From: Malus domestica
Taxonomy: Eukaryota; Streptophyta; Magnoliopsida; Rosales; Rosaceae
Length of the DNA stretch: 64,000 nucleotides
Assembly (NCBI RefSeq): GCF_042453785.1
Contig: NC_091661.1
Location: forward strand, 29,627,501-29,691,500
Direction: 5' to 3'
Positions within the stretch are counted from its first letter, which is position 1. Every line of letters starts with the position of its first letter. Shown one piece after another: positions 9,531-32,300 of the stretch. The position numbers were made by a program, and so were the translations under genes. Under the pieces are notes generated by a model. It did no database searches. It was given only the letters and a program-made list of their open reading frames with translations, and was not told where the DNA came from.

Positions 9531-9535
9531 CATGG

Positions 9536-10180
9536 TGTTTATACCATACTTAGGGTCTCCGTATTTAGACCTCGTATAAATACTTGAGGGACTTAAATGT
9601 AATTATGTAATAAAGGAAGGGGCAAATATGTAGTAAGTGATGATCCTTTATTCTATAAAATGACTCATCACCCTCACAATTCGACCGTGAATCTGCGAGA
9701 AATGTAAATAACATAAGATGTATTTACATAACATAAGATGTATCGTGGTTCACCCCAAGGTTTGGGCTACGTCCACACTGATATTGTATTTCTGAGGGAG
9801 AGAGAGAGCTTCTGAGGGTGAGAGGGCCTACGAATTGGCCTAAGAAATTGGTCTCCCCTAATTGTGAGGGTGAGGAGTCCTTTTATAGAATAAGGGCTCA
9901 TCATTTATTACATATTTGCCCATTCCTTTATTACATAATTACATTTAAGTCCTCCGAGTATTTATACGAGGTCTAAATATGGAGGCCCTAAAATTTCTTA
10001 GGCCAATTCCTAGGCCCTCTCACCCTCAGAAGCTTTCTCTCTCCCTCAGAAATACAATATCAGTGTGAACGTAGCCCAAATCTTGGGGTGAACCACGATA
10101 CATCTTGTGTTATTTACATTTCTTGCAGATTCACGGTCGGATTTACGTTGTTCCAAGACTTCCGGTTTTGTGCATTTACA
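9536..10180 (+). repeat. 5' LTR of element A, with an inverted LTR copy inside
   Basis: The LTR is in three pieces. 9536-9681 is the forward left half, with a TATA-like tataaaatg. 9682-9990 is an inverted, nearly full LTR lacking both tips, which begins cgaccgtgaatctgc. 9991-10180 is the forward right half. The inverted piece pairs with both forward halves, making a large fold-back. A 24-bp stretch (catttacataacataagatgta-like) is itself duplicated near 9710-9750. Confidence 0.8.
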
Positions 10181-10181
10181 T

Positions 10182-10200
10182 TTGACGCCGTCTGTGGGAA
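10182..10200 (+). other. Primer-binding site of element A
   Basis: The sequence ttgacgccgtctgtgggaa follows the 5' LTR directly. The equivalent site in element C (24142-24160) reads ttggcgccgtctgtgggaa, one base different. Plant Gypsy elements of the Tat/Athila group use tRNA-complementary sites beginning tggcgcc; the exact tRNA cannot be assigned by eye. Confidence 0.6.
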
Positions 10201-10431
10201 TCAACACGAAAAGCTATGTCGATTCTTTCATTTTTTTTTATCTCCACCTTGAATCTGCAAAAACCCAAGAACCCAGAAAACCTATGGAGCCACATTCTCT
10301 CTGACTCAATCTCTCTTTGCAATTGCACAGACCACGTGCCTGGCCTCCATCTCTCTTGCTTCTGATCTCTTTCACCTCTTCAAACAAAACACCACAAACT
10401 CTATCTCTCTCTCTCTCTTGCTACTCTACTC

Positions 10432-10905
10432 GTGCACTTTCCAAGCCCAAATAAGTACTCTTCTTTCACGGGCGACTTCTCAACAGCCACTGGAATAGCA
10501 ACATTCATAATGATGTTGCTCAGCCAAGTTATATTCGAAAAGTATGGATGGGGAGTTGCTGCAAAGATCACACCTACAATGCTACTTCTCACTGGAGTTG
10601 GTTTTTTCTCTTTGATATTGTTCGGTGGCCCACTTTCACCAGTTGTTGCAAGCCTCGGGATGACTCATTTTCTTGTAGCAATATATGTGAGTGCTCTGCA
10701 AAACTTTTTTAGCGAGACGGCCAAGTACAACTTGTTTGACCAATGCAAAGAAATGGCATACATTCCCTTGGATGAGGACACCAAGGTTAAAGGAAAGGCG
10801 ACAATTGATGTTGTCTGCAACCCAATGGGGAAGTCTGGCGGTGCTCTGATTCGGCAGTTTATGATCTTAACCTTCGGATCACTCACCAACTTAACACCTT
10901 ACCTC
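10432..10905 (+). pseudogene. Captured fragment of plastidic ATP/ADP translocator (NTT)
   Basis: The frame reads GDFSTATGIATFIMMLLSQ, KYGWGVAAKITPT, LLLTGVGFFSLILFGGPL, CKEMAYIPLDEDTKVKGKA, and then GKSGGALI with MILTFGSL. This follows the chloroplast-envelope ATP:ADP antiporter, which imports cytosolic ATP into plastids. About 155 of its roughly 600 residues are present, with no intron and no stop. It lacks the N-terminal transit region and most membrane helices, so it cannot work as a transporter. It is in the sense orientation of element A and in frame with the next two fragments. There is no ATG at its beginning; the first in-frame ATG is at 10510. Confidence 0.85.
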
Positions 10906-11049
10906 GGGGAAGTCTGGCGGTGCTCTGATCCGGCGAACAGCAGCACGGAGAGATTGAAGATCTTTGACGACGAAAGCCATATCATCAGCTTCAGCATGGT
11001 GGGCGGGGACCACCGGCTGTCGAACTACAGGTCGGCATCAACAGAAACT
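10906..11049 (+). pseudogene. Captured fragment of PYR/PYL-type ABA receptor
   Basis: The frame continues as SSTERLKIFDDESHIISFS and VGGDHRLSNYRS. This is the central part of PYL receptors, around the latch-loop HRL motif and the following NYRS strand. The conserved GLPAxTSTERL context is partly altered (SDPANSSTERL). Only about 40 residues are present, so the START-fold pocket is incomplete. It joins the NTT piece through a 24-bp sequence repeated from 10827-10850 at 10906-10929. No stop interrupts the join. Confidence 0.8.
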
Positions 11050-11235
11050 CTGGTCAGACGCGATACAACTCCAGTTGCGGATGATTCATCGACTGGCTTA
11101 TCTGATGCAATACCTGCTCCAGCGTGCAATGCAATGATTTTCGAAGCACTTTCTGCCTCGACAAATCCTAATGCATTGGACACTAGTGCTATTGCTAGCT
11201 TTATTGAGGGAAGAGTGAAAGGAAGTGAGTGCTAA
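11050..11235 (+). pseudogene. Captured fragment of TRB / single-Myb-histone factor
   Basis: The last third of the fused frame contains NAMIFEALSASTNPNALDTSAIASFIEGR. This matches the start of the H1/H5 globular domain in plant telomere-repeat-binding (TRB/SMH) proteins. The preceding 20-25 residues (VRRDTTPVADDSSTGL...) could be the linker between Myb and H1/H5 domains. The Myb domain and the rest of the globular domain are missing. The frame closes at a TAA just after GSEC. Confidence 0.7.
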
Positions 11236-11945
11236 AGGAGCAGTAACAGAATAATTAAAGCAGAAATTAAGGTGGAAAGAGACAGATAGCGTGTAATAGA
11301 AAAGAGAAAAGAAAAAGTTGAAACGGGTTGTGTTGGTGAGGAAAAGAGGAAGGCTTTCCTCCAGTACGCCACTTTCTCTGCTTTTGTGTTGGTGAGGAAA
11401 ACATATTACTTTACTGAATCAAAGACTCTCACAGCTATGCAGTAAGCACTACTGTTGTGGATACAGCTATGCAGTTAACATTACCGTTGTGGATACAACT
11501 ATGCAGTCAACAATTATTTCTAGAGGAAGCCATAACCTTCACCCAGATCGACAGTAGAGAGGAAAAAGATAAAGCTTCCTATTATTATTCTATCATGATT
11601 CTTTTTTGCCAGGTGAAGAGACAGAGAGAATGCGGTGGAAAAGCAAAAACATAGCATAAAAAACAAAAGCAAAGCAGAAAGCAAAAGCAAAAAAAGGAAA
11701 TGGCGTTATTCCCTTGTCTGTCATCTGCCAAAAGAAAGAAAAATAAAGAGAAAGCAAAAGGGAGGCACATGGGGACACTGCAAAAGCAAGGAATAAACAC
11801 CCCACCAGAATGATGTAATTTGTTTTTCTTATTTTTCAGAGGCATCTGTATAACCCCATCAGAGGGTAATAAAAAAAAAAAGGCAAAGCCCAAAATAAAT
11901 GGACTGGAATGTTGTGTGAATGGTGAAGGCCCATAAGCCCAAAAT
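11236..11945 (+). other. Internal spacer of element A, partly shared with C
   Basis: Direct repeats 'gtggataca(g/a)ctatgcagt' occur at 11457-11505. A purine-rich, lysine-codon-like tract (aaagcaaaagcaaa) spans 11630-11760. The phrase 'tgcaaaagcaaggaataaacacc' at 11779-11801 is shared with element C (25745-25767 and 25772-25794). No protein family is recognised. Confidence 0.6.
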
Positions 11946-12610
11946 AGCACCAACCAGGTGATCAAAAGTACGTCCAGTACTACAAAAAATTATTCGGCAC
12001 CCTGCCGCTACTATCACCAACCAGGTGATCAAAAGTACGCCCAGTACTCCAAAATTATTCGGCACCATGCCGCTACTATCACCAACCAGGTGATCAAAAG
12101 TACGCCTAGTACTCCAAAATTATTCAGCACTCTGCCGCTATTATCATCAACCAGTTGATCAAAAGTACGTCCAGTACTTCAAAATTATACATGAGCATTA
12201 GTCATGTCAATTATACATATACATTCATGAGCATTACTCATGTCAATCATAAACATTCATGAGTATTACTCATATTAATCATACATAAACATTCATGAGC
12301 ATCACTCATGTCAACATCTATGAGCATCACTCATGTCAACATCCATGAGCATCACTCATGTCAATCAGCTTCAAAAACTTCATTTACAGAGCTCTAGTTT
12401 CAAAAGCTTCATTTACAGAGCTCTAGCTTCGAAAGTTTCATTTACAAAAGCTCTAGCTTCAAAAGCTTCATTTACAGAGCTTCAGCTTCAAAAGCTTTAT
12501 TTACAAAAGCTCTAGCTTCAAAAGCTTCATTTACATAGCTCTAGCTTCAAAAGCTTCATTTACAGAGCTCCAGCTTCAAAGCTTCACTTGCAAAGCTTTA
12601 CCTACAAAGC
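11946..12610 (+). repeat. Three adjacent tandem-repeat blocks of element A
   Basis: Block 1 (about 11950-12187) has four units of about 61 bp (accaggtgatcaaaagtacg ... gccgctactatc). Block 2 (about 12188-12365) repeats 'atgagcatcactcatgtcaa' and similar; each unit holds the palindrome catgagcatcactcatg. Block 3 (about 12365-12610) repeats 'cttcatttacagagctctag' at about 30-bp spacing. The same three blocks in the same order occur in element C at 25988-26560. Confidence 0.85.
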
Positions 12611-13175
12611 TTCAGTGCAGGGTATACAAATACCGCCTCCAAACAACCGCCACTTTGGCCCGTACATGGATTCAATTTGAAGTCTCTAGCCAACATACTC
12701 TATTGACCAAAGACTTGGGGGATTATATTATGTACCATATATTGGGCCTCAACTGGGCCTCATGAAAAATACTTGGGGAACTCTAGCCCATTATTCATGT
12801 ATTGAGGATTGAGCCCTTATTCAATAAAAGGGACTCCCTCACCATCATTAGAAAGCATCGCCGCCTACTGAGCAACCGCCTCGTCGCGATCATCAACTCT
12901 AGCCCATACTTATGTATTAAGGAGCGAACCCTTATTATATAAAAGGGACTCCCTCACCTTCAAACACCACAAGCCGAGCCAACCAAGGTAACATAAGCCA
13001 CAAGCCGAGCAGCCTCGCAACTTGTGCTATTTCTAGTTGAGCATCATTTCACTTCAAGCACCGCCTCATATCGAGTACCAGTTCAAGACAACATTTAGTT
13101 ACTTCGGCCCACACATGGACTGAATTTCAAGTCTCCAGCCAAAAGACTCTCTTGACTGAAGACTTGGGGGACTAT
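12611..13175 (+). repeat. U3-like TATA modules and purine tract of element A
   Basis: Two modules (about 12780-12850 and 12898-12962) read 'tagcccat...atgtattgagga...cccttatt...ataaaagggactccctcacc'. They resemble the LTR's own promoter core (gagcccttattctataaaag). A direct repeat 'acatggattcaatttgaagtct...agacttgggggatta' near 12665-12724 is echoed at 13113-13175. The second instance ends in the polypurine tract gacttggggga. Confidence 0.7.
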
Positions 13176-13522
13176 TATTTATACCATACTTAGGGCCTCC
13201 GTAGTTAGACCTCATATAAATACTTGGGGGACTTAAATGTAATTATGTAATAAAAGAATGGGCAAATATGTAATAAGTGAGGAGCCCTTATTCTATAAAA
13301 GAACTCCTCACCCTCACAATTAGGGGAGGCCAATTTCTTAGGCCAATTCATAGGCTCTCTCACCCTCAGAAGCTCTCTCTCTCTCCCTCAGAAATACAAT
13401 ATCAGTGTGGACGTAGCCCAAACCTTGGGGTGAACCACGATACATTTTGTGTTATTTACATTTCTTGCAGATTCACGGTCGGATTTATGTTATTCCAAGA
13501 CCTCTGGTTTTGTGCATCAACA
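13176..13522 (+). repeat. 3' LTR of element A
   Basis: 347 bp, from tatttatacc (5' TG changed to TA) to catcaaca. It contains ctataaaag and the conserved tail 'cagtgtggacgtagcccaaa ... gatacat'. It is uninterrupted, unlike the 5' LTR of the same element. Confidence 0.85.
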
Positions 13523-13604
13523 CATGGCATTACTAAATTGCATGTATTTTCGTGAATTTGTTCCAAGCATTTATTTTTGTTTAAAAGTATGAAATTGATA
13601 TATA

Positions 13605-15004
13605 GGGTAGCGTTTGGTACAAAGACGGGATGGAACGGTACAGAACAAGACGGGATGGAATGGAACGGAACGAAACAGAGGTTTCATGCTATGTTTGGTA
13701 CGTATAGGATGAAATGGACAATTGTCCTGTTCCTCATTTGGTACACGCAGGACGGAATAGAACGAAGGACTAAATGACAAACTTACCCATGTTTCGTTGA
13801 TTCCATCAACTCAGCCTCATGAATTTTTTGCAAAACTTGGATTTTTTTACAGCCGTATATACGAAGGTGGAGTGAAGGTAAAGCAGAGAAATTTTGCATC
13901 TCTTCGACTTCAATGGTTATGCAGAGAATAAACTTGATGCAGATCTAAGATCTCATCTGCATCCCTGCCATTCCTTCCTCTATATATTACCTTCCCATCA
14001 CTTCCTTCTTCCTCCATTGGTCCATCCAGTGGCGGATATAGGAAATAATATTAGGGAGGTCAGTAAGAATAGCGCACAGCGCGCAAATTTTTTATACTAG
14101 AAATAACATGCATATTGCCATTTCATCGAGTCTTCGTAGGCCTAAAGTCATTTGAAAATGTATACTACAAACATGTTAATGTATGCAAGGGGCAGCACCT
14201 AAGGTATTCACGGACATTCATCGGGTTTTGGTAGGCTTGAAGTCAGTCAAAGGGCAAGTATGAAGCCAACTCTAATCTTTAAAAGGGCAACACTCAAGGT
14301 ATCTATGGACATTCACCGAAGTTCGGAAAGTCAGCACCTAAGTTATCTATGAACGTTCATCGAAATTCGGGGGGTCAGCTGACCCCCATGCCCCTTAATG
14401 GATTCGCCAGTGGGTCCATCCTCACCCTATCACCGAAAAATTCTCAAATTCCTTCGCAAACCCAATTTCTCTTCCCCTCAAAGTTCATTCCATCTTTCAA
14501 GGAGTCTGAGATTTGGGGTTATTCTTAGACACAGATTTTACAAGGAAAATGCTTCACTGAAGCTCATCGACACTGGTGCCCAACTCATGGATGCCACATT
14601 CCAAAGGTTCAACATTTTCCGATCAGCAACCGGAAATGGTGCTGCAAATCCCGCGGGGAAAAGGAGGCGGTGGAGGATCTGGAGATTAAGGAGGGGGAAG
14701 GGAGGCAGTGGAGGATTTAGTAGTGATGGAGGCCCGGGAGAGAAGGGATATGAAAGAGGGGGTAGCAGATTAGGTTTGTTTTTGTGATTTAGACAGTGTA
14801 ATTAACGAAAAAGATATATAAGGGGCATTTTTGTTTAAAAAATTATAATTTTGTGTTCCACGGGGTAGAACGAGTCGTTTCAGGGGAAGGATAGAACAAA
14901 AATTTAACTAAAATCCGTTTCACAGGACATTGCGTCCCACTCTTTTTGGCGCACCAAACGTAGAACGAGCGCGTTCCGTCTCATCCCATGTATCAAACGG
15001 TACC
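13605..15004. mobile_element. TIR DNA element with internal genic-looking sequence and nested hAT
   Basis: The left end gggtagcgtttggtacaaaga and the right end, read backwards, ggtaccgtttgataca form imperfect terminal inverted repeats. TA flanks each side. The end regions match the shorter element at 47033-47334. The middle (about 13890-14780, without the nested hAT) shows coding-like sequence on the plus strand. It includes a Ser/Pro-rich N-terminal-like part and a glycine-rich part near 14650-14760, but no family is recognised. This could be a captured host-gene piece, as in Pack-type elements; that is inference. Confidence 0.6.
14027..14412. mobile_element. Non-autonomous hAT-like element
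   Basis: 386 bp with ends CAGTGGCGGAT and, reversed, CACTGGCGAAT. It is flanked by a perfect 8-bp duplication, ggtccatc (14019-14026 and 14413-14420). The 8-bp duplication and CA(G/C)TGGCG ends are hAT hallmarks. The interior has no transposase. It is nested in the 13605-15004 element and so is younger. Confidence 0.85.
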
Positions 15005-15351
15005 TAAAAGAATCGTCTAATCGTTTAGATATGAGATAACAGTTGAACAAGCGATTCATGAATGCACCCTGATTGGACGAGCCAATTACTCGAACGCGTT
15101 CGGTCTATTTTTTGAGCAAAAGTCACAACGTTTATCTTTCTTTCTTGAAATTTTTGGCCCACATCACTCTTTCCTTCCTAGACGTCCATTTCAATCATGC
15201 AACTTGCATGAAACCCCGTCTTTTTGTCCTCAATTGCGAAGAGAAAAATTCCATTATAGGCGACCAAACGGGCGCCCCCTAATTGCTAGATCAACCTGAT
15301 CTACTAGGTTTTACCTTATCCATAATAAAATAGTGAGCTGGCTTGACCAAG

Positions 15352-15525
15352 AGAGATTTTTCAGTGTAATCGAAACACGAGATTGGTATATCACTTATTA
15401 TTATACAAATAATGAAATATGTGTATTTAAAAAATGTATAACTTAAAAAATAAAAAAATTCACTACTTATACAAAAATACGTAATGTACCATTCGTGTTT
15501 CGATCACAATAAAAAATTTCTCCTT
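15352..15525. repeat. MITE, single copy of the palindrome family
   Basis: It begins gagagatttttcagtgtaatc and ends cgatcacaataaaaaatttctc, with 'tatacaaataatgaaatatgtg' inside. It is the same family as the arms at 6652-7000. Confidence 0.7.
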
Positions 15526-16267
15526 GATAAAAAAATAAAAGAGTGAGCTGGCATTTTGCAGTGACTGCGCAGAGCAGCTTGGATTGTAGTGAGCATAAGA
15601 TGGCTCACATGGTGTTTGCATGGGTGGTTGAAGACGGTCGCATCTTGCATGTTGTTCTTTGCCAATTGCCAACCAGATAGAACGATTGACAGACCAAAGG
15701 ACAAATCTATGTTTGATTACAAATTATTTGACCTTTTACTCATTAATTGTACACTACTCGTTTGATCTTGTTATTTAAAGATTTGATCGTTATGGTGTAC
15801 TTGTTTATAGGTACATGTCTATTTTTGTCAATATTTTGCTTCCAATTTTCCATTTTTATCATGTTATTCGAGAAACAAATATATTTGCGGATTAATTAGG
15901 TCTTTCAGCCATCTTAAACCTAATCATTGTATTTGGTTTGAGAAACGTTAGGTATAACAAAATTTATAATTCAAAAATGTGTCACCAATAAAAAATAAGT
16001 ATGTTATCAACACTTAAGTAATAATTTAATCATCAACTTTCTTGTCATTCGATTTACAAAATTTGTACAAATTTAGTCTTCCTAAATTACCCATTTGGTT
16101 TTTCAATTTTTCATTGTGTGGTTTATAAATTTTAACAAGTTGTTTAATCCTTGAAAATCAAGTGCTAACAAAGGTATGTACTTTTTGCAATAAGCACTTC
16201 AAATGTTTTTTACAAGATTTACATGCATTTTTTATTTTTTACTAATGATTGGTTCTTGCAATAAGCA
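15526..16267. other. Intergenic spacer
   Basis: AT-rich sequence with short open frames only. No gene, RNA or element is recognised. Confidence 0.4.
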
Positions 16268-16276
16268 CTCCAAATA

Positions 16277-16475
16277 GGAAAGAGATCATCTCCGGATCTC
16301 TTCCACCAATGCCACATGATCAAGTGATTCGGATCCTTAAAATTTGATCAAACGGCTAAAAACATGGGTCTCCTTTAAAAGTTATAATAACTTTAGCCGT
16401 TGGTTCAAATTTCAAGGGTCCAGATCACTTGATCTGGTGGCCTTGGTGGAAAAAATCCGGAGATTATCTATTTCC
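16277..16475. mobile_element. MULE-type MITE with 9-bp target duplication
   Basis: The sequence is a nearly complete inverted repeat: ggaaagagatcatctccgga at the left pairs with tccggagattatctatttcc at the right. It is flanked by a perfect 9-bp duplication, ctccaaata (16268-16276 and 16476-16484). A 9-bp duplication points to a Mutator-like transposase. Confidence 0.85.
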
Positions 16476-16724
16476 CTCCAAATATACCTTAACATTTTAA
16501 TTAGTAAACCTGGCTCGTTTGTTAGGCTGGATGAGATTGGGCATTAGAGATATGATTGAATTAGCAAAGACTTATAAGACATAGCTTGTAACCCATGTAT
16601 AAAGATAAGTTAGATAACCCACTTTATGTGAATTCATAGCCTATCAGTCCAATTCTGTCAATCTTACATTTTAATACAATAAACAACAGAGTGAACTCAA
16701 ATATTTTTTAATTGCGCACAACTT

Positions 16725-17926
16725 ATTCCTTTCAGCCCATCAAACGGGCCAAAGCTATTGTAAGTGTAACGAGTAATTATAGTTAAGGAAAAACTAATGA
16801 AAATGGCTTGAAAACTTTGAGTTTTAATGAAAAACCATACACTAACTTTATTTAATAATAATGACAAAATAAATAAATAAATAACATAACATAACATAAA
16901 AAATAAAAATCGCGAACAGTAACGTCTGTAAAGAAGCAACTGTCATTCATTGCTTCCCCGGCTGGACCAAGAAAAATCGATGGGTTTGTGATTTTTGTGT
17001 CTGTTTCAGTTGTCGCCATGATTAATATCGACTTCTGTTTTCTTCTTCTTCTCAATATCATTTGTGTAGCATGATAGCATCCCCTACCCACCCATCCAAA
17101 ACTCCATCAGACCCATATTTGATCCAAGATGCTAGAAGACATTACTAGCAATAGATTACAACAAAACCAAGCTAATTTTACCTCCTCTTTTCAAAGGTTG
17201 TAGTTCGATTCCATTAGAGCAACTCTCACCGAGAACCCCTGCTTGGATTATCCTACTTCCCATTACATAATTTAACATGCAATGGTACCATAGGGATCCC
17301 CAGCTTGCGCATGTCTTGTATTTGGTGGTTTGGGGTCTCAATTAAATTGGAATTTGTCGTGATGGTGCTTGGAGTTCTTTTTGGCTATGGTGGTTTAGAG
17401 AGAAGGCAGAGAGTTCGAAAAGAGAGAGAGAGAGAGAGAGTTCTTGAGTGTTCACGGGGGAAAAGGAAAAAAAAGAAAGAAAAGGGAAGAAAAGAGAGTG
17501 GGCCGGGTTACAAACACAATACAATGATGTAGTATTGTTAAGTTTCATAAACAGTGTAGTAAATTTCATAAACAGTGCAGTAAGTTTCATAAACAGTATC
17601 GTAAGTTTTATAAATAGTGTAAAAGTTTCATAAACAGTGTGAGGACGCATGGGTCCTCACGTCAAATTTTTTTTAATATTAAAATTATATCATTTTTATT
17701 AAAATTTAAGTTCTATTGTCATTTTTATTAAAATTTAAAGATTTTTCATTAAAATTTAAGTTTTTTTTAATTAAATAAAGTTTAGCATGATTTTTGACTT
17801 AATCCAAATACTTTTCATGAAGGCTCCCTGTAATTAATTGTCTAAAAGGGTCAAAGTCACAACATATTCCTTTTTTTCAACCCATCAAACGGGCCAGAGC
17901 TATTGCAACGAGAAATTATAATTAAA
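16725..17926. repeat. Roughly 60-bp direct repeats flanking a 1.07-kb segment upstream of CFIm25
   Basis: The sequence 'cccatcaaacgggcca(a/g)agctattg...taattat(a)gttaa' occurs at 16725-16787 and 17863-17926. The segment between holds a 'gaaaactttgagttttaatg' repeat fragment (16789-16850, related to 34941-35093) and a (GA)n run at 17421-17440. It also holds a tandem array at about 17535-17640 of five units of about 20 bp (agtttcataaacagtgtagt). No gene is recognised in it. Confidence 0.65.
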
Positions 17927-17994
17927 TCTCTCCCCGTCTCCGCTCTCTCCCACCTCTATTTCCACCGATCGCCGTCGAAGATTACAGACGGTAG

Positions 17995-20445
<2,451 letters not shown>

Positions 20446-21097
20446 TGAAGAAGGAATTATGAAGTTACCGTGATATCACTATTCAGTATACTGAAGATCA
20501 CGTCTGGACATCATTGCGTGGATACCTAAACTCAAGACCGGATATTATTCTTATAACTGAACTTAAGTTGGTTAGTATGAGATCCTTCAGTTTATCCAGA
20601 TGAACGAAGCATATCTTGTGGTCTGTTTTGTTCATCTATGTTTGTTTATGATCGTATTTGCTAATGCGTTTTGCATTACTCTTGAAACTTTGTCTGAACA
20701 GTGGTTGCGCTGTGCAAGTTCTTGTTTCTTAGCTAGAAGGTTTGTTAGTTACTTTAGACACCGGGAGTCGTACAATGTTGTCTGAGTTATGTTTTCAGAT
20801 TCTCAATATTTGAGATTTTGTACGATAACTTGTTCTGCTTTTCTGTAACGATGGGTAGGAGATGTATGTGCTTACTTCTTAGAATGTACCTAACTACTGT
20901 CTTAACTTTGTGTAATGGTGGGTAGGCGATGGACGCGTTCCCATAGGATTCTTATCGGTTTCATTCTGTTGGGAGCCATGTGGCATGTAATCATCGTTGT
21001 AGAATTCGTCTTTGATCAGTAAAATTCTTCCTTTTTTCAAGAAGTGTATTATTTCTTCATATGGTTTTACGAAATGCTGCATATTTTGAGTGAATAG
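20446..21097. other. Spacer between convergent CFIm25 and PPR genes
   Basis: This holds the 3' untranslated regions of both genes. The two genes converge with about 650 bp between stop codons. No element is recognised. Confidence 0.5.
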
Positions 21098-22867
21098 CTA
21101 TTCTTTTTGAGGCTCACATTGGTTTGAAGTGAATCTAATTTGTTCTACCTTCTCTCTATATTTTGAGTGGCTTTCGATGTCGGGCTCCTGGGTTCCATTA
21201 GAGGCATAAACATGACTGCGTCCTGTGTTCTTCCAAATCTTCTTTTCTTCCATTTTCTCTCTTGCACTTTGAGCCTCTGGCCATTGCCCTGCCGAGGCAC
21301 GCATGTTAGCCAAGAGGACATAAACCCCGGATTCGTCTGTTTCCAACTCAGTAGCCTTCTCGATCACTTCCTCTGCCAACTTAAGGTGACTAGTTTCTCT
21401 GCAACCCCCAAGCAATGTTCCCCATATAGCAATGTCGGGGTTATACGGCATTTCCTTCACCATACGTAGTGCTTCCTCCACCCGACCATTTCGGCTCAGC
21501 AAATCGATTAGGCAGCCAAAATGCTCAAGCTTTGGCACAATCCCAAATTCTTTATCCATGGAATGGAAGATTCTTTCGCCTTCTTCTACCAAGCCTCCAT
21601 GGCTACAAGCGAAGAGAGCAGCGGTGAACGTGAAGTCATTCGGCTTCAACCCTTCCTTCTGCATCAATGAGTATATCTTGACGGCATCTTCTGCTCTTCC
21701 GTGGATAGCGACCGATCTAATCATAACATTCCAACAAAATACATCCCTCTTTCCTATCTTGATAAAAAGAGCAAACGCTCTGTTTATGTCCCCGCACTTC
21801 GCATACATGTCGATAAGGGCAGTCCCTGAAATGGTTCCGAAACGAGACCAATCTTCTATCAAGCTGTGTGTCCATTTTCCGAAATCTAGGGCACCCAAGT
21901 GGGAACAAGCTGACAGAACCGAAACAAATGTATATCCATCCGGAACCACACCTTCCGAATGCATTTGCACAAAAACATCCAATGCTTCTTCATATTGTCT
22001 ATGCTGGTTGTAACTTGATATCATACTGTTCCAAGACACCACATTCTTGCACGGCATTGTGTTGAAAAACTTTCTTGCCGTTCTAAGGTCTCCGGCATTG
22101 GCATATACTCCGATCATCAATGTCCACGAGATGACATCCTTTTCCGGCATCCTCTCAAACAAATCACTTGCACTGCCTACATCTCTTACTTCAGCATAAC
22201 CGGAAATCATAGAATTCCATGAAACGACGTCCTTGTCAGGCATATCATCGAACAACTTTCTCGCACTCTGAACATCACCACCGCTCGCATACCGTGAGAT
22301 CATGCGGTTCCACAATTCTACAGGTTTCACACGCATATAATCGAACACCTTGCGGGCATCATTCAAAGACCTATAATTTACAACACCAGAGTCGCAGGAA
22401 TCCAGCATTTTAACATACATATTGAAAAGGGCATTAGCAACCGCCAGATTTGACTCGAACCCATGCTTTACAATATGGCACTGCACTTGTTTTCCTTTTC
22501 CGTACCAACCCAATTTAGAGCAGGAGTTCAAGACATATGGGTAGGTGAAGTTATGGGGTTTGATTCCTCTCAGAGGCATTTCATCAAACACTGAGACGCA
22601 TTGATCGAACGGACCGTTGATATCGTACCCTCTGATCATGGCGTTCTGAATCACAATGTTGTTACTGAGTTGAGGACCCAGTTGGGAAAATATGAGATTG
22701 GGATACTCCATGGATCCAAACTCGGTGCTCCGCCGGAGAAATTTTGAGAAAATTTGGATGTTTTGGTTGAGAGAGGTAGTAACAATGAGGACATGGATTT
22801 GCTTCAACTGTTTGAACGTGCATTGTGGTAATAGTTTCGAAAGAGTGAACTCTAAGGAACCTCGCAT
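21098..22867 (-). CDS. PLS-class pentatricopeptide repeat protein with E domain
   Basis: One exon of 589 codons from the ATG at 22867. It shows tandem PPR motifs: NAMIRGYDINGPFDQCVSVF, VELWNRMISRYASGGDVQSA, VVSWNSMISGYAEV, VISWTLMIGVYANAGDLRTA, then the G-LKPNDFTFTAALFACSHGGL pattern. An E/E+ region follows (WGTLLGGCR, GVYVLLANMRASAGQW). There is no DYW domain. Such proteins bind single-stranded organelle RNA, and E-class members usually take part in C-to-U editing with a partner deaminase. The N-terminus could be a weak organelle transit peptide. The exact RNA target cannot be read by eye. Length and lack of introns are usual for the family. Confidence 0.93.
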   Translation of the reverse strand: MRGSLEFTLSKLLPQCTFKQLKQIHVLIVTTSLNQNIQIFSKFLRRSTEFGSMEYPNLIFSQLGPQLSNNIVIQNAMIRGYDINGPFDQCVSVFDEMPLRGIKPHNFTYPYVLNSCSKLGWYGKGKQVQCHIVKHGFESNLAVANALFNMYVKMLDSCDSGVVNYRSLNDARKVFDYMRVKPVELWNRMISRYASGGDVQSARKLFDDMPDKDVVSWNSMISGYAEVRDVGSASDLFERMPEKDVISWTLMIGVYANAGDLRTARKFFNTMPCKNVVSWNSMISSYNQHRQYEEALDVFVQMHSEGVVPDGYTFVSVLSACSHLGALDFGKWTHSLIEDWSRFGTISGTALIDMYAKCGDINRAFALFIKIGKRDVFCWNVMIRSVAIHGRAEDAVKIYSLMQKEGLKPNDFTFTAALFACSHGGLVEEGERIFHSMDKEFGIVPKLEHFGCLIDLLSRNGRVEEALRMVKEMPYNPDIAIWGTLLGGCRETSHLKLAEEVIEKATELETDESGVYVLLANMRASAGQWPEAQSAREKMEEKKIWKNTGRSHVYASNGTQEPDIESHSKYREKVEQIRFTSNQCEPQKE

Positions 22868-23805
22868 ACTAATTCACTAGCTCTTTGGCTCTTGTCTGTC
22901 CTTTTAATTCCTTTTTCTTTTTCTTTTTTCTGTGGGTTCAAAGAAAAAAGCAACAGCAGCAACGATACAACATCAGTGAGTGTTTTACAAATGTGCATAA
23001 AAAACAATGAGAACCCTGCATTCGAGATTTTGTGTTCGATTTTTTCAATTCCTAATATCGCTTATGTTATAATGATGATAAGTAGAGTTGTGCATTGTTG
23101 GCAGAAGAAATTATGTTCTTCAGTATGTATCTTGTGTGACGCTCTTTTTCTTATTAAGTTTTTTCTCCTGTGATTTTCTTTAAGAAGGGTTTTTTTATTT
23201 TTTTATTTTATTTTTTATTTTTAACAAAGGCCCACTTGTTTTCTTTTTGGTTTTTTTCCTCGTACATGTTAGGCAGTGTATCTTTTGTAAGATGCAACTC
23301 TTGCTCCCAATATTTACGATGGGTTTTGAATTGTCATTTTTTTACTATCCTATGGTATCTATTATTCCGACAAAAAAATAATATCGCTTATACTAAATAA
23401 AAATCATTCTTATTTACGAATAAAAAATAGAGTATATTATTGGAGATTATAAGAGAGAATGAATAAATATGATCGGTTTTGGTCCCTAGTGACCTAGTCA
23501 CCAATGTTCATTGAGTCAGATTTTCAATTTGTGATCAAAGTCTCTTCACTTTTTTCACATCACGCTTTTATAATAAATATTTTTATATATATGTGAGCAG
23601 TTGATTTGGTATTGAAAAGTAGTATTTATTCCCTAATTTATAGCCTTGTTTTATGATAATTTTTAATAAATTTTAGACGACTTATTTCTAACTAATTAAC
23701 AATATTATTTAATTTTAATAGTTTTAAAATAAGATTATCTTCATCTTCAAATGCTACTCAAATGTGCTCTAGGGTTTAGCTCAACAAATATTGTTAATTT
23801 TAATA
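22868..23805. other. Intergenic spacer upstream of the PPR gene
   Basis: AT-rich. The last part (23719-23785) is a roughly 65-bp stretch that is repeated just after element C (27609-27675). No gene is recognised. Confidence 0.5.
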
Positions 23806-24140
23806 TTTTTTGTTTATACTATACTTAGGGCATTCGTATTTAGATCTCGTATAAATACTCGGGGGACTCAAATATAATTATGTAATGAATGAAGGGGCAA
23901 ATATGTAATAAGTGAGGAGCCCTTACTCTATAAAAGGGCATCCTCACCCTCACAAACCTGAAGCTCTGATCCTCATATACATAAGCTCTATCTCCCTCAC
24001 AAACAGAGAAATACAATATCAGTGTGGACGTAGCCCAAACATTGGGGTGAACCACGATACATCTTGTGTTCTTTACTTACTTGCAGATTCACGGTTGGAT
24101 TTCTGTTGTTCCAAGATCCCTCCAAATTTGTGCATCAACA

Positions 24141-24564
24141 TTTGGCGCCGTCTGTGGGAATCAACACAAAAAACTATGTCGGTTCTCTTTCATTTTTTCA
24201 TAAAATCTCACACTATCCACCGTGAATCTGCAGAAACACCAAACCAAAATCCCAGTCCAATATCTCTCTCTAGAAACCCAGAAATGGGTAAGCAGAACAG
24301 ACACATACTCTATCTCTCTCTCTCTCTCTATCTCTACACATTGTTCTCGCTCACTTTCTTCTTCAACACCCTTACCTCCTCTTCATTACCCCAATCCAGC
24401 ATCTGGGTTCCGTTGTCTTTTCGTTTTCCTCACCTGAGTTTCTTTTATTTCATCGTATATGCGATCCAAGTTTGAAGATTTCAGAGAGCTGAGCTCAAAA
24501 TTTGTAGAGAGACGAATGATCTGTTTCTCGAGCTCGATCAGAAGGTACAAAATCCTTTAAAATC
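24141..24564 (+). other. PBS and leader of element C
   Basis: The PBS (24142-24160) is followed by 'tcaacac(a)aaaa(g)ctatgtcg', shared with element A at 10201-10218. A CT-rich microsatellite lies at 24312-24338. No coding family is recognised here. Confidence 0.6.
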
Positions 24565-24905
24565 CTAGATTTTGGTACTGTCCCGTGTCGCCAACTCCTC
24601 GCAGTACTGCCTCTTGCACTCATCGGTAGACGCCGCCTCCCTCCCGCGCAGAAAAGAGTCGTTCGATGTGAAGCTCCGATGTCGGAGATCTTCCGCTGGA
24701 GAACCGATGGTCCCAAAGGCCACGTCTCGGTCTACGTCGATGACGAGATGAAGCGGTTCATGGTCAGCTCCGATCTCCTGAACCACCCAGTGTTCATCGT
24801 ACTCCTCAACAAGTCGGCGCAGAAGTACGGCTAGGAGCAGAATGATGTCTTCCGGATCCCTTGCCAAGTGATCGTCTTTGAGCGTGTGATCAAGGTGCTC
24901 CGCTT
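24565..24905 (+). pseudogene. Captured SAUR (small auxin-up RNA) gene fragment
   Basis: One frame gives LSRVANSSQYCLLHSS and RRKESFDVKLRCRRSSAGEPMVPK. After a one-base deletion at about 24715, the next frame gives GHVSVYVDDEMKRFMVSSDLLNHPVFIVLLNKSAQKYG, an in-frame TAG, and then EQNDVFRIPCQVIVFERVIKVLR. This follows SAUR71/72-type proteins, small auxin-induced regulators of PP2C.D phosphatases and cell expansion, almost end to end. The frameshift and stop make it non-functional. It is in sense orientation to element C. Confidence 0.82.
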
Positions 24906-24974
24906 TAGACATGCCCCCTCACGTGACCTGCACGATCTCCTGAACTCGATCTCCAACGACCTGAGATCCTGGGA

Positions 24975-25125
24975 AGGAATATTGATGAAATCCGTATAAA
25001 GAATCTCAAGAAAGTTTGCACTGATTTGGTTCGTGGTGCTAAGGACAAACACATACGGGTGAAGGGACCTGTGAGGATGCCTACCAAGGTTCTGAACATT
25101 ACCACCAGGAAGTCTCCGTTCCAGC
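24975..25125 (+). pseudogene. Captured 40S ribosomal protein S20 (uS10) fragment
   Basis: The frame reads [38 protein letters not shown] and ITTRKSP. This is the central part of cytosolic uS10. Compared with the family, the residues between IRI and KNL (usually about 6) are missing, and the C-terminal third is absent. There is no intron. Confidence 0.85.
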
Positions 25126-25155
25126 AGAGAGAAGAATAGATAGATCGAGAGAGAG

Positions 25156-25530
25156 ATGGAGGATGAGAATGCGGTGAACGTGAACGTTAGAGCAGAGATG
25201 AGGAAGCTGAGCCCTGAGCAGTTGAAGGCCGTCAAAGAACAAACCGATTTAGAAGTCAATCTTCTCCAGGACTCCCTCAATAACATCCGCACTGCCACCT
25301 CCGCCCTTCACGACCTCTCCATCCGCCTTCAGGGAAAGAAGATACTCGTCCCACTTACGGCGTCACTTTACATCCTCGGCACCCTCCACGACGCCCACCA
25401 AGTCAAGGTCAGGCCAAAGATTACTGCGAACGTAAGATCAGCTTGCTCAAATCTAAATTTGACCAACTTGTCAAGTTCGGCAAGACATACCAGGAATACG
25501 TGCAGAAATTGTGCCTAAAGGATTGCATCA
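25156..25530 (+). pseudogene. Captured prefoldin subunit 5 fragment
   Basis: From ATG 25156: ...KLSPEQLKAVKEQTDLEVNL, LQDSLNNIRTAT, SALHDLSIRLQGKKILVPLT and ASLYILGTL. A shifted frame near 25410-25480 then gives DYCERKISLLKSKFDQLVK. Prefoldin 5 is a subunit of the hexameric chaperone that hands actin and tubulin to CCT. About seven residues after RTAT and about thirteen after HQVKV are missing compared with the family, as clean internal deletions. It is sense to element C and follows the RPS20 piece after about 30 bp. Confidence 0.85.
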
Positions 25531-25987
25531 GACAGGGATGAGGAACATGGGTGGATAGAGAATGAGCGATGAGATCAAGAAAAGCAAAAGAAGAAAGTAG
25601 AAAGAAAAACAATCAAGTGAGTTGCGGCACAAAAGCAAAAGAGAGAGGCACAATAGGAAACAAAAGCGAAAGCAAAGCAGAAAAAACCGAGAAAAAACAG
25701 AAAGCAAAATGGAGGCTTTCCTCTGCGAGAGCACATGGGGACACTGCAAAAGCAAGGAATAAACACCCACACTGCAAAAGCAAGGAATAAACACCCTACC
25801 AGAATGATGTGATTTACCTTTCTTATTTTTGAATGATGTGATTTATTTTTCTTATCTTTCGAAGACATCTGTATAACTCCATTAGAGGGTAATAATAATA
25901 ATAATAAAAAAAAAAAGCAAGCCCAAAATAATGGGCTAGAATGTTATGTGGAGGGTGAAGGCTCATATGCCCAAAAGAGCCAGGCCC
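25531..25987 (+). other. Internal spacer of element C, shared with A
   Basis: A purine-rich tract (aaagcaaaag...) and two direct copies of 'actgcaaaagcaaggaataaacacc' (about 25742-25794) match element A at 11630-11801. A short (aat)n tract lies at 25890-25905. Confidence 0.6.
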
Positions 25988-26560
25988 TCTATTATCACCA
26001 ACCAGATGATCAAAAGTACGCCCAGTACTCAAAAAATTATTCGATAGCCTGCCGCTATTATCACCAACCAGGTGATCAAAAGTACGCCCAGTACTCCAAA
26101 AATTATTCGGCAGTCTGCTGCTATTATCACCAACCAGGTGATTAAAAGTATGCCCAGTACTCCAAAATTATTCGGTAGCCTGCCGCTATTATCACCCACT
26201 AGGTGATCAAAAGTACGTCCAGTACTCCAAAATTATACATGAGCATCACTCATGTCAATCATACATAAACATTCATGAGTATCACTCATGTCAATCATAC
26301 ATAAACATTCATGACCATCATTCATGTCAACATTCATGAGCATCACTCATGTCAACATACATGAGCATCACTTATGTCAATATCCATGAGCATCACTCAT
26401 GTCAATCAACATAAAAATTCATGAGCATCATTCATGTCAATCAACTTCGAAAGCTTCATTTACAGAGCTCCAGCTTCGAGAGTTCCAGCTTTGAAAGCTT
26501 CATTTACAAGAGCTCCAGCTTCAAAGCTTCACTTGCAAAGCTTCACCTACAAAGCTTCAG
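25988..26560 (+). repeat. Three tandem-repeat blocks of element C
   Basis: Block 1 (about 25988-26232) has four units of about 61 bp with 'caccaaccaggtgatcaaaa'. Block 2 (about 26233-26440) repeats 'catgagcatcactcatgtcaa'. Block 3 (about 26440-26560) repeats 'agcttcatttacagagctcc'-like units. Order and unit sequence match element A, but copy numbers differ. Confidence 0.85.
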
Positions 26561-27277
26561 TGTAGGGTATACAAATATCGCCTCCGAACAACCGCCACTT
26601 CGGCCCATACATGGATTCAATTTGAAGTCTCCAGCCAACATACTCTATTGACTAAAGACTTGGGGGACTACACTATGTACCATATATTGGGCCTCCGCAA
26701 CTGGGCCTCATGAAAAATACTTGGGGGACTCTAGCCCATTATTTATGTATTGAGGAGTAAACCTTTATTATATAAAAGGGACTCCCTCATTTTCATTAGA
26801 GAGTACCCATTATTCATGTATTGAGGAGCGAACCCTTATTTTATAAAAGGGACTCCCTCACCTTCATTAGAGAACATCGCCGCCAGCTGAGCAACCGTCT
26901 TGCCGCGAGCATCAACTCATAACCCATCACTTATGTATTGAGGATCGAGCCCTTATTCTATAAAAGGGACTCCTTCACCATCATTAGAGAGCATCAAATA
27001 TAGCCCATCATTTTTGTATTGAAGAGCGAGCCCTTATTCTATAAAAGGGACTCCCTCACCTTCAACGCCACAAACCGGGCCAACCAAGGCAACATAAGCC
27101 ACAAACAGAGCAGCCTCGCAACATGTGCTAATTCTAGTTGAGCATCATTTCACATTGAGCACCGCCTCATATCGAGTATTCAGTTCTAGACAACATCTAC
27201 TTACTTCGGCCCACACATGGACTGAATTTCAAGTCTTCAACCAAAAGACCTTCTTGACTGAATACTTGGGGGACTAC
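26561..27277 (+). repeat. U3-like TATA modules and purine tract of element C
   Basis: Four modules (about 26725-26790, 26808-26868, 26932-26988, 27003-27062) share 'atgtattga(g)ga..g..cccttatt.tataaaagggactcc(c)tcacc'. Element A has two. They echo the LTR promoter core. The region ends with atacttgggggactac just before the 3' LTR. Confidence 0.7.
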
Positions 27278-27613
27278 TGTTTGTACCATACTTAAGGCCT
27301 CCGTATTTAGACCTCGTATAAATACTCGAGGGACTTAAATGTAATTATGTAATGAATGAAGGGGCAAATATGTAATAAGTGAGGAGCCCTTACTCTATAA
27401 AAGAGCCTCCTCACCCTCACAAACCTGAAGCTCTGATCCTCACATACAGAAGCTCTATCTCCCTCACAATCCTCTCACCAATAGAGAAATACAATATCAG
27501 TGTGGACGTAGCCCAAACATTGGGGTGAACCACGATACATCTTGTGTTCTTTACTTTCTTGCAGATTCACGGTCGGATTTACGTTGTTCCAAGACTTGTG
27601 CATCAACATTTTT

Positions 27614-29317
27614 AAAATAAGATTATCTTCATCTTTAAATGCTACTCAAATATGCTCTAGGGTTTAGCTCAACCAAATCTGCCACAAAACCTTAGAATCA
27701 AGGTCATCCACTAGAGGCAAGTCTAGTCTCCCTTTTAAGCTTACTTTTTTGTGCAACTTTATTCTACCACTTATGGTACATATATCAAATTTGTAACCAT
27801 AAATCATTATCTCATGACACTTGCCCGTATATTAGTATCGATACGTTGTTATTTTTGTTGCTGCTATCTATGAAATAATACGTACGTGGGTACATTCTTT
27901 TTCGTTGATTTGAGAATATATCCATGTGAAGTTTATTCGAAGAAATTTATACCGATGTTATTAAACATAATATCTATTTTTGTTTTTGTTTTGAAGAATG
28001 TACCTATGTTTTGGTTTGTTTTGAAGAATGTACCTATGTTTTGGGTTTGAAGAATCTACCAAATGCTTTATGATACATGGGTTTTTTATTTGATTCGATG
28101 AATGTACACATGGTTATTTTTATATATGCATGTTGTTTTTATGCAAAAACATAATTTTTCTAATTTAATATTTTTTCATGTGGTGGGGAGTATAATTTGT
28201 TTCTGAATAGTTTTAAAATCACAAATCATGCGTTTTATTCAAAATCTCATAAATACAGGCAACTACAAATCCCAATTTTAATTTAAAATAAAATAACGAA
28301 CATAGAAATATATTAATACTAAAAGTTAGAGACTTCGATCAACTAAAAATGAATAAGGTTTCAATCAAACAACATTGGTAACTAGAAACTGCATCCAAAA
28401 TTACCCTATAACCTATTGTTAAATAACGTGGAAACCACATATTTTTTATGAATTTTTTTATTTGAACTCATATAACCTCATTCTATACTCAACTTATGAA
28501 TTGGGTGATGAAGGCAAAGGAAGTCATAGCCGTTATTCTTCTCTTTCCTTTTTTTGGTCAATATACATTGACTTTGTGCTTGGTCATATTGGTTTTGTTA
28601 ACCAAAAGAAATCCTAGCAAATCTACTTTATAGAGTAATGTAATGGTAAAGATTTTGAAAAGATCAAGAGTAGGATTAACTATTATGATAAGGATTAATA
28701 AGCCCCAAGGCATCATTTCCATGTACCCATCAAACAATGTTTAGGAGTTGGTCAATGATTATTATTGTGTTTTATTTTTTTGTCATATCCTGTTGTCTTA
28801 TTTGTGTTTGCCTGTGAAAAATAATCAGTTGTTTAAGCAACCAACAAACTTATTTAATGTGGAAATTAGGGAGAAGGGTAAAGCATTGAGCAACGTAGCA
28901 CCAATTGCTTTGTTACAGTGTACACTTAATTAATAGATCAAATGTTGTCTTAATCTCTGTCGTTTTCACTTGTGCTAAAAGAATACTATGTAAAGACGAA
29001 TTAGGGTTTTATTTCTTATGTTTAAGGGTAGATGTTATATCACTGAATCTAGGAGTCCTCTTTCGATTTGAGATTTTTATCATTCATTAGTGACCGAAGA
29101 TTACAGTTCAGTAATTCTTCATTTCAATCGGACCTCCATGCATGAGAGATTGCAGACAACCCAACTGTCTTCTCTAACATGGAAGAACCAGGAAAAAGAG
29201 TTGCATCCATTGATATATGAAGATGCAGATGGATGACCAATGAGTAGTAATACAAAAAATGGAGAACTTGGTGTTTGGCCAAGTTTTCCCAATTCATAAA
29301 TCTTTGACTTGATTCAT
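27614..29317. other. Intergenic spacer between element C and copia 1
   Basis: AT-rich. The phrase 'gaagaatgtacctatgttttg' is duplicated at 27994-28043. No gene is recognised; short frames at 28748-29090 have no family resemblance. Confidence 0.45.
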
Positions 29318-29322
29318 GGAAT

Positions 29323-32300
29323 TGTTAGTGTTCTTGATTTATCTGAGTTATGCAATATGGAGATAGAGAGAGGATTGAAGGATGTAAAAGGAATGAATGT
29401 TCTTCTTTTCTCTCGCAGAAATTGCAGAGAGGAATATATTTCTCTTAATAGAAAATTGAGTACACTCGTGCATTTCATGATTGTTAGCCTTAGCTGGATC
29501 CACACATATCACATTTGATCTCAGCCATACATCTAGCTAATTTCTAGGATCACTACACATGACTATTTTAGCCTTACATATTGGAACCTCACACTTGTCA
29601 TTCTATAAGACTAAGTGCATACACAATTAACATTCAAGGCTTCTTATTTACTAATCAGCTCATTATTTACAATTCTACACTCCCCTTTAAGTTTTGAGCT
29701 GATTTCACTCCAAGTTTATCCCTGAGATAGCAGAATCGATCCTTAGCCAATGACTTTGTGAAGATATCTGCTAGTTGCTTATTCGTAGGACAGTAGACAA
29801 AATCAATGATTCCTTCTTGTAGAGCATCCTTGATGAAGTGATATCTTCGATCAATATATGCTTAGTTTTCTTAGTGAAACACAGGGTTCTTTGTGATAGC
29901 AATTGTAGCAGTATTGTCACACTGAAGTGGAGTTGCTTCAGTTTGAAATTCACCAAAATCTTCCAAAACAAACCTGACCCAAATGGCTTGTGCAGTTGCT
30001 TCTGATGCACTAATATACTATGCTTCTGCAGTTGAAAGTGCAACATAATTCTGTTTAACCGAGGCCCAAGAAAAAACTCCACTACCAAAAGAGAAAGCAT
30101 ATCCTGAGGTACTTTTACTGTCATCCAATGAACCACCCCAGTCACTATCGCAATAACCAATTAGAATTGCATTTCTTCCCTTCACATACTCTAAACCATA
30201 GTCAAGTGTTCCTTTGATATATCTGAGAACTCTTTTGGCAGTTCCATAGTGTTTGTTGGTAGGGCAATGCATGAATTTTGCAAGTAAACTAGCTGCATAG
30301 ATCACATCAGGTCTTGTGGCTGTGAGATACAATAGACTTCCCACAATCTTCCTATATTGTTCTTCATTTGCTGGACCACTGCCATTATCTTTGCTAAGCT
30401 TCTTAGTTGTAACCAAAGGTGTAGCAACAGATTTACACTCACTCAAGCCAAATTTATTCAACAAAGATGTAGCATACTTTCTTTGATGAATAAAAATGCT
30501 TGTGTGTGTTTGATTGACTCCCATTCCCAGAAAATGATGCAAGAGCCGCAAATCTGTCATTTCATACTTTGTCATCATGTCTCTCTTGAATTCCTCCAAC
30601 ATTGGTTGATTATTCCCCGTGTACACAATATCATCTACATATAGAGACATAATTAGAATTTCTGCTTCTCCTTTGGTTTTAGTAAATAAAGTGGCCTCAC
30701 TTTGACTCTTTTCAAATCCACATTGAGCAAAATAAGAGTTAATTTCACTATATCAGGCCCTTGGTGCCTATTTTAAGCCATACAAAGCTTTATGAAGCTT
30801 GTACACTTTGTCTTCACTCCCCTTGACCATAAAATCATCTGGCTGTTCTACATAAACCTTATCTTCGAGTACTCGTTTAGAAAAGCAGACTTGACATCTA
30901 GTTGGTACAGTTTCCAACTCTTTTGTGTTGCCAATGCAACTAGTGTTCGAATTGTATCAAGTCTAGCCACAGGTGCAAAGGTCTCATTATAGTCAACACC
31001 TGGTTTCTAAGCATATCCCTTGGCTACCAGCCTTGCTTTATTCTTCTGCATTGGTCCATCAAGGTTAAACTTGGTCTTGAACACCTACTTAACCTCAATT
31101 ATAGGTTTATCACTTGGCCTGTCTACTAGCTCCCATGTTGCATGCTTTTCAATCATTGACAATTCATCTTTCATAGCCTTCATCCATGATTCATCTTTAG
31201 TTGCCTCATCAAACTTTTTAGGTTCCATAATGGAGAAATTGCATTGAGCTAGAACATCATCCAGGTTCCTCCATCTCAATGGAGAGTGATCAAAGGCTTG
31301 AGACTTTCTCATGCTGCTACTCACATCACTTGTTGATTCATGAGAAGATAATAAGCTTGGTGACTGAGCATAGTTTTGACCTTCAGGAGTTGCCCTTGGT
31401 GATGTATCCTTAGGCATTTCAGATAACTCATCATGATTGAGCACAGTTACATAATTCTCAGAGACCTACTTCCACTCCCAGGTTGCATTTTCATCAAATA
31501 CAACATATTTCAAGAGTATAAGATTCTTAGTGAGAGGATCATACACTTTGTACCCCTTTTCACAGGTTGCATAACCTACAAATATGCCCTTGACACTCTT
31601 TGCATCTAGTTTCTATCTCAACTCATTTGATATGTGTACATAACATAAACAACCAAAGATTCTAAGATGAGCAATCCCTGGTTTTCGACCACTGAATGCT
31701 TCAAATGGAGTTATATCTTCGATAGCTCTTGTAAGACACCTATTCAGTATGTAGACAGCTGTGTGTATAGATTCTGCCCACAAATAGTAAGGTAATCCTT
31801 TATCATGAAGCATGACTTTTGCCATTTCAACTACAATTCTATTCTTTCACTCTACAACTCAATTTTGTTGTGGAGTATAAGCCATAGAGAGTTGCCTTTG
31901 AATACCTTCATCTTCACACAACTTGTTAAATTCACAGGATGTGAATTCACCCCCTATGTCACTTCTTAGGCATTTTACTCTAATACCACTTTGTAGCTCT
32001 ACCATAGATTTGAATTTTCTAAAACAGTTCAATGCATCTGACTTGTATTTGAGAAAGTAAACCCACATCATTTTTGTGCAGTCATCTACAAGAAGCATAA
32101 AGTACTTATTACCAGCAATGGACTCATTTTGCATTGGCCCACATAAGTATACATGAATTAATTCTAGGGGATTGCTTGCTCTCCATGCCTGATTCTTTAG
32201 GAACCACTCTCTATGCTACTTTCCAAGCTGACAACCTTCACAAACTTCATCAACTTCTTCTAAGTATGGAAGTCCATGCACCATTTTCTTCTCTTTGAGT

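Follow-up and report, generated by a model that had tools for sequence, protein, structure and literature searches.

How did pieces of six different host genes come to lie, all in sense orientation, in the same slot of two long terminal repeat (LTR) retroelements of apple? The two, here called element 1 and element 2, stand in a 64,000-nucleotide stretch of Malus domestica DNA (NC_091661.1; C1:29627501-29691500 of G000, the 651-Mb genome that we searched), and this whole stretch is what we call the window. A first-pass annotation had proposed a family of gene-capturing retroelements of fixed architecture whose cargo was acquired through RNA. Capture through RNA at a fixed slot is borne out by the removal of parental introns, by a sense bias of the cargo and by 18 further copies of the same layout. 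Very probably, the elements belong to a high-copy, non-autonomous apple LTR family with an exchangeable cargo slot that is filled when reverse transcriptase switches onto host RNA.

Element 1 is made up as follows:

9531..9535, no strand: left copy of the target-site duplication (TSD) CATGG
9536-13522, + strand: element 1, a complete non-autonomous LTR retroelement of 3,987 bp, TSD CATGG on both sides
9536..10180, + strand: 5' LTR, with an inverted LTR segment inside
~9678-9991: the inverted LTR segment, matching 13190-13485 in reverse at 88%
10182..10202, + strand: primer-binding site (PBS), one base different from the family 21-mer
10203..10280, + strand: conserved leader
10366..11238, + strand: open frame of 289 codons spanning the three captured genes
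10407..10437, + strand: plastid ADP/ATP carrier, 3'-terminal 31 nt of parental intron 3, lying in a CT tract at the 5' edge of the fragment
10438..10905, + strand: ADP/ATP carrier exons 4 and 5, the 249-bp intron 4 absent at 10786/10787
10906..10929, + strand: carrier stretch of 24 nt that occurs already farther upstream, copied here a second time by a probable template slip, before the PYL piece
10930..11034, + strand: piece of a PYL4-like abscisic acid receptor
11036..11208, + strand: TRB (Myb/linker-histone) piece, a ~870-bp intron absent at 11123/11124, ending at an exon 3' end
11240..11800, + strand: purine-rich spacer (62% purine)
11948..12614, + strand: three tandem-repeat blocks with units of 65, 36/25 and 29 bp
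12620..13175, + strand: TATA modules, inside which the polypurine tract (PPT)/LTR-start region is copied, then the PPT
13176..13522, + strand: 3' LTR, beginning TA, not TG
13523..13527, no strand: right copy of the TSD CATGG

Element 2 follows the same plan:

23806..23810, no strand: left copy of the TSD TTTTT
23811-27608, + strand: element 2, a complete non-autonomous LTR retroelement of 3,798 bp, TSD TTTTT on both sides
23811..24140, + strand: 5' LTR
24142..24162, + strand: PBS, the exact family 21-mer (genomic C1:29651642)
24163..24250, + strand: conserved leader
24679..24960, + strand: SAUR (auxin-inducible) piece with one stop
24975..25117, + strand: ribosomal protein S20 (uS10) piece, a ~409-bp intron absent at 25014/25015
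25144..25475, + strand: prefoldin-5 piece, inside parent exon 1, with 21- and 40-bp gaps against the parent, ending at the exon 3' end
25543..25740, + strand: purine-rich spacer (77% purine)
25989..26559, + strand: three tandem-repeat blocks
26560..27277, + strand: TATA modules and PPT
27278..27608, + strand: 3' LTR
27609..27613, no strand: right copy of the TSD TTTTT

The fixed architecture and the common orientation of all six captured pieces (carrier, PYL and TRB in element 1; SAUR, S20 and prefoldin-5 in element 2) thus stand as first described: both elements run LTR, PBS, leader, cargo, purine-rich spacer, three tandem-repeat blocks, TATA modules, PPT and LTR. One refinement is that the TATA modules partly repeat the PPT/LTR-start region. 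The leader measures ~80-100 bp in both. The marks of an LTR retrotransposon are present, namely two LTRs, TG..CA ends, a 5-bp TSD, a PBS and a PPT, the exceptions being the TA start of the element 1 3' LTR and the one-base deviation of its PBS. The inversion is confined to the 5' LTR of element 1, and the 3' LTR is plain. A domain search of the captured pieces found no gag-pol in the cargo of either element. The carrier piece matched Pfam TLC (E 2.1e-55) and PDB chain 9j3j. Myb and linker-histone domains were found in the third piece of element 1, which has relatives P0246-P0248 and which we take to be of the TRB type. The nearest named proteins are those of Malus domestica and M. baccata, which identifies the plant as an apple.

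Is this layout the property of a family? The exact 21-nt PBS has 556 genomic copies, 278 per strand, and the reversed-reading 21-mer has none; the PBS of element 1, being one base off, lies outside the 556. The copies examined (L009-L028, 7 kb each) were the first 20 of 100 listed PBS places, all on C1. Leader sequence follows the PBS in 19 of the 20, L028 having the PBS only, and the repeat region lies within the fetched stretch in 18 (a short part only in L026). L009 and L028, without a repeat region in the fetched stretch, were left out of slot counts, leaving 18 slots of 1.1-2.6 kb. The leaders of these 18 copies and of the two window elements all resemble one another, and by ~100 bp little of the resemblance is left. 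We conclude that the family layout, with one slot between leader and purine-rich spacer, is not due to chance: 19/20 leaders and 18/20 repeat regions are shared, and the 18 further copies extend the proposed slot well beyond the window. LTR pairs could be aligned in 14 copies. Those of L011 and L012 are identical, so the family has been active recently; L014, L016 and L021 have Kimura two-parameter distances of 0.007-0.008 and the rest 0.038-0.071, and the pair of element 2 stands at 0.062.

What do the slots carry, and on which strand? We scanned the three sense frames of each slot against Pfam, with the 54 antisense frames as a control. A host-type domain above the curated cut-off was present on the sense strand in 13/18 slots, and any match at E<=0.01 in 14/18. 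The domains above cut-off were Alfin and TPP enzyme (L010), OTCase (L012), DUF3700 (L015), DUF1666 (L016), Alfin (L017, L018), NPH3 (L019), AAA lid (L021), RING (L022), NTF2 (L023), metallothionein (L024), thylakoid formation (L025) and linker histone (L027); L026 had an AMP-binding match below cut-off, and L011, L013, L014 and L020 had no sense Pfam match at E<=0.01. With overlapping families merged and Alfin and AAA lid counted once, these are 17 sense fragments, 12 of them above cut-off. The antisense frames gave four families at E<=0.01: lipoyl, V-SNARE, Cupin and a weak tRNA-binding match in L020. Antisense cargo is thus a minority, rather than equally frequent (17 against 4; two-sided sign test, p = 0.007, the fragments being taken as independent). 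The gag, reverse transcriptase and integrase families of Pfam were absent at E<=0.01 from both strands of the 18 slots; no other partner search was made.

If the cargo passed through RNA, parental introns should be missing from it, and the first-pass annotation had seen none. This held for carrier intron 4 and for the TRB and S20 introns, all precisely absent, and failed for carrier intron 3, of which 31 nt are present. The carrier parent lies on C17 (L036), which is nearer than the C9 paralogue (L037), and its 249-bp intron 4 is precisely lost. The TRB parent on C2 (L029/L030) has a ~870-bp intron that is missing from element 1 from GT to AG, and the ~409-bp GT-AG intron of the S20 parent on C1 (L044) is just as precisely missing from element 2. 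Beyond the window, L015 lacks exactly the 278-bp GT-AG intron of its DUF3700 parent on C11 (L051). A second piece of L015 matches C15 (L050) minus a ~303-bp gap, the borders of which are not callable as GT-AG; L050 itself has no family LTR, leader or repeat match. The prefoldin-5 piece lies within one parent exon, and the SAUR and PYL4 parents, which we take to be intronless, offer no intron test. Hence five parental GT-AG introns are touched, and because four of them, from four different genes, are precisely gone and 31 nt of the fifth are retained, we conclude that the template was spliced or partly spliced RNA. The CT tract at the retained intron edge resembles that of the leader. The 24-nt re-copied carrier stretch of element 1 is as expected from a slipping reverse transcriptase. 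Elsewhere, at C15:16128565 (L043), an S20 copy without intron has no family LTR or repeat match in the fetched stretch, and looks like an ordinary processed copy.

Where do the fragments end? The 3' ends of five fragments can be compared with intron-bearing parents, or of six with the C15-derived piece of L015 included. The TRB, prefoldin-5 and DUF3700 pieces stop exactly at the 3' end of an exon; an artefact of genomic alignment was considered and rejected, since the next exon of the three parents, by reading, is not continued in the element. The S20 piece stops 11 nt short of the exon end, the carrier piece stops inside an exon, and the C15-derived piece stops where C15 has GC instead of GT. 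The sequence directly after the three exact ends is not common to them, and family spacer sequence appears within 29-66 nt past the exact ends in element 2 and L015. The exact ends hint at splicing intermediates or fusion RNAs, and two accounts build on them.

In the first, transduction of the retroviral type, an element near or in a host gene would be read through together with it; splicing would join a host donor to an acceptor farther downstream, and the resulting fusion RNA, once co-packaged, would recombine at its 5' side. In favour of this are the three exact ends and the spacer close behind two of them. However, no one shared acceptor directly follows the three exon ends, the S20, carrier and C15-derived pieces end elsewhere, and several genes from different chromosomes in each copy would require repeated rounds. 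We consider this account rather unlikely.

The second is a variant of template switching onto host RNA, in which reverse transcriptase would jump end to end, within the nucleus, onto RNAs that are half spliced or onto 5' exons set free as splicing intermediates. It would explain the same three ends as well as a carrier template that kept intron 3 and lost intron 4, but the ends in its favour are three among only five or six testable, and that a plant LTR element is reverse-transcribed in the nucleus is an assumption here. We hold it to be unlikely.

Could the cargo have been captured as DNA, in the way that DNA transposons do it, through gap repair or ectopic recombination? The antisense pieces and the inversion in the element 1 5' LTR could be DNA events, as could a feature of L021 (slot 1024-2958), where the cargo lies in a 968-bp tandem duplication that is 99.2% identical. 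Against this, the precise loss of four GT-AG introns from four genes largely refutes DNA-level capture for the sense pieces tested, and we judge it very improbable.

Does one cargo recur throughout the family? In all-against-all comparison, the 18 slots are mostly unrelated, and "different cargo" is here a statement on this sample. Two shared cases are excepted: an Alfin block common to L010, L017 and L018, whose 5' cargo differs, and 106 bp common to L011 and L014 between different flanks. The remaining slot-to-slot matches sit toward the 3' (spacer) end. In searches of the whole genome, the PYL-TRB block of element 1 was found at 93.8% in L032 (C16) with different 5' cargo, and the chimeric frame of L032 is the annotated apple protein P0063; P0087 and P0241 are more PYL-TRB chimeras among Malus proteins. 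The SAUR-S20 block of element 2 recurs at 88.3% in L042 (C10), where both flanking sides differ. The cargo of L015 is shared with L047 (91.5%, ~790 bp) and L048 (87.1%), and L049 has its 5' part only. Further genomic places that match the TRB, carrier and prefoldin queries may be more copies or pseudogenes. Because all three sets searched genome-wide have relatives in other copies, we conclude that cargo is kept, trimmed and exchanged, and that amplification of old cargo also contributes. That cargo was fixed once in an old composite element and then only amplified is hardly credible: some blocks are common to copies, the ~790 bp of L047 and L015 among them, but the slots are mostly unrelated, different cargo stands beside several of the shared blocks, and the same full cargo in most copies was not seen in the sample. 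We also considered a strict polarity, with new cargo 5' and old cargo 3'. It fits element 1/L032 and L010/L017/L018; since element 2/L042 (both sides differ), L011/L014 and L049 contradict it, we do not claim it.

Filling of the slot from host RNA by template switching could proceed as follows. The element RNA would be packaged and copied by proteins that presumably come from an autonomous LTR element not seen here. While the minus strand is made, reverse transcriptase would quit the element RNA, copy at least one co-packaged host RNA, spliced or half spliced, and return to the leader via short matches. The new copy would integrate with its chimeric cargo, and later rounds would keep, trim or replace it. 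The packaging, the helper and the order of the jumps are what we infer.

Several points weigh against this account. A clear antisense lipoyl domain lies in L011, and V-SNARE and Cupin, not attributed to slots, are antisense as well; to account for such pieces, one has to invoke a switch during plus-strand synthesis, antisense RNA or some other route. The carrier piece retains the end of intron 3 at its 5' edge. For element 1, element 2 and L015, whose cargo was searched for in the whole genome, a block of it recurs each time in at least one other copy. The sampled copies all lie on C1, being the first 20 of the 100 PBS places listed, and neither packaging nor a helper was observed. As a tentative extension, with the odds rather against it, pickup and swapping of host RNA may be a usual outcome of replication here and no rare accident, partly from nuclear splicing intermediates or fusion RNAs, which would make the hundreds of copies a library of exon-shuffled chimeras.

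Does the chimeric open frame of element 1 function as a gene? The predicted protein P0001 covers the last 241 aa of the 289-codon frame. Nonsynonymous (dN) and synonymous (dS) divergence are 0.062 and 0.083 against the C17 carrier parent, and 0.053 and 0.108 against L032. Since these values show no strong constraint, we do not claim a functional gene. Chimeras P0063 and P0121 are already annotated as apple genes, which makes the family relevant to genome annotation.

The surroundings of the elements hold other features. By eye, the flanks of element 2 (~23727-23790 and 27609-27680) have ~65 bp in common beyond the 5-bp TSD, as if the target had been duplicated in tandem earlier on. The ends of ~13600-15010 look, again by eye, like mutual inverted versions, and the stretch is perhaps a DNA element. 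Broken Copia-type gag-pol frames (~29771-33826, - strand; ~53980-56324, + strand), read from the list of open reading frames, are unrelated to the captured-gene elements.

How does the family compare with known systems? Tat/Ogre/Retand-type Gypsy elements are similar in how the PBS begins and in having tandem repeats within their 3' untranslated portion; the apple slots, in contrast, were scanned without finding gag-pol. Among Rosaceae elements, HODOR is likewise an LTR element present in many copies in apple and pear (PMC13334179, PMC6901071); compared by description only, it differs in its 9,716 bp and its clustering at putative centromeres (PMC13334179). The TGTT and AACA subfamilies of pear and apple include two TRIM-like families with no coding sequence (PMC5659011), TRIMs being terminal-repeat retrotransposons in miniature. 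We rejected these subfamilies as a named match: they are Copia/Ale with LTR ends TG..TT or AA..CA (PMC5659011), and the LTRs here run TGTT...CAACA, that is, TG..CA. The earlier failure to match the family to a named one is therefore upheld, with HODOR set apart by description only. In the portions available of PMC4717578, PMC5659011, PMC13317346, PMC13334179, PMC6901071, PMC11197308, PMC3726574, PMC2774510 and PMC13359793, among the open-licence literature searched, no apple family of this kind is described.

TRIMs with gene fragments in soybean and Medicago (30 elements in seven subfamilies, 1,172-1,449 bp) resemble the apple elements in being non-autonomous, in their exon-only pieces, in two elements with several genes and in the 5-bp TSD (PMC4717578). 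The window elements differ in their 3.8-4.0 kb, well above the 1.2-1.4 kb of gene-carrying TRIMs, in their tandem repeats and TATA modules, and in a family where 13/18 sampled slots hold a host-type domain. Surveys of maize, rice and sorghum likewise found LTR elements with host gene fragments inside (PMC2774510, PMC3726574). The maize survey counted 425 elements, derived from at least 189 captures, none of the elements with fragments of more than one standard nuclear gene (PMC2774510), in contrast to the three genes in each window element. As a precedent, the first-pass annotation had named maize Bs1, in whose LTR-bounded sequence parts of three host genes and a hybrid open reading frame are found (PMC13317346). 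The likeness holds in the number of genes and in host exons lying without introns inside the element, bar 31 nt of one intron; it ends at copy number, Bs1 being counted among low-copy elements (PMC2774510), whereas the apple family has 556 exact PBS sites and sampled copies with mostly different cargo. That LTR elements capture genes is thus known; serial capture of several genes throughout one large family appears, in the literature searched, to be new. The surveys cited here describe scattered cases. In the apple family, which combines 556 exact PBS sites and a single slot with several genes to a copy, and in which the LTRs of two sampled copies are identical, capture events form a natural series: junctions, template splicing state, strand and capture order can be counted, so that the way in which retroelements transduce genes can be tested directly.

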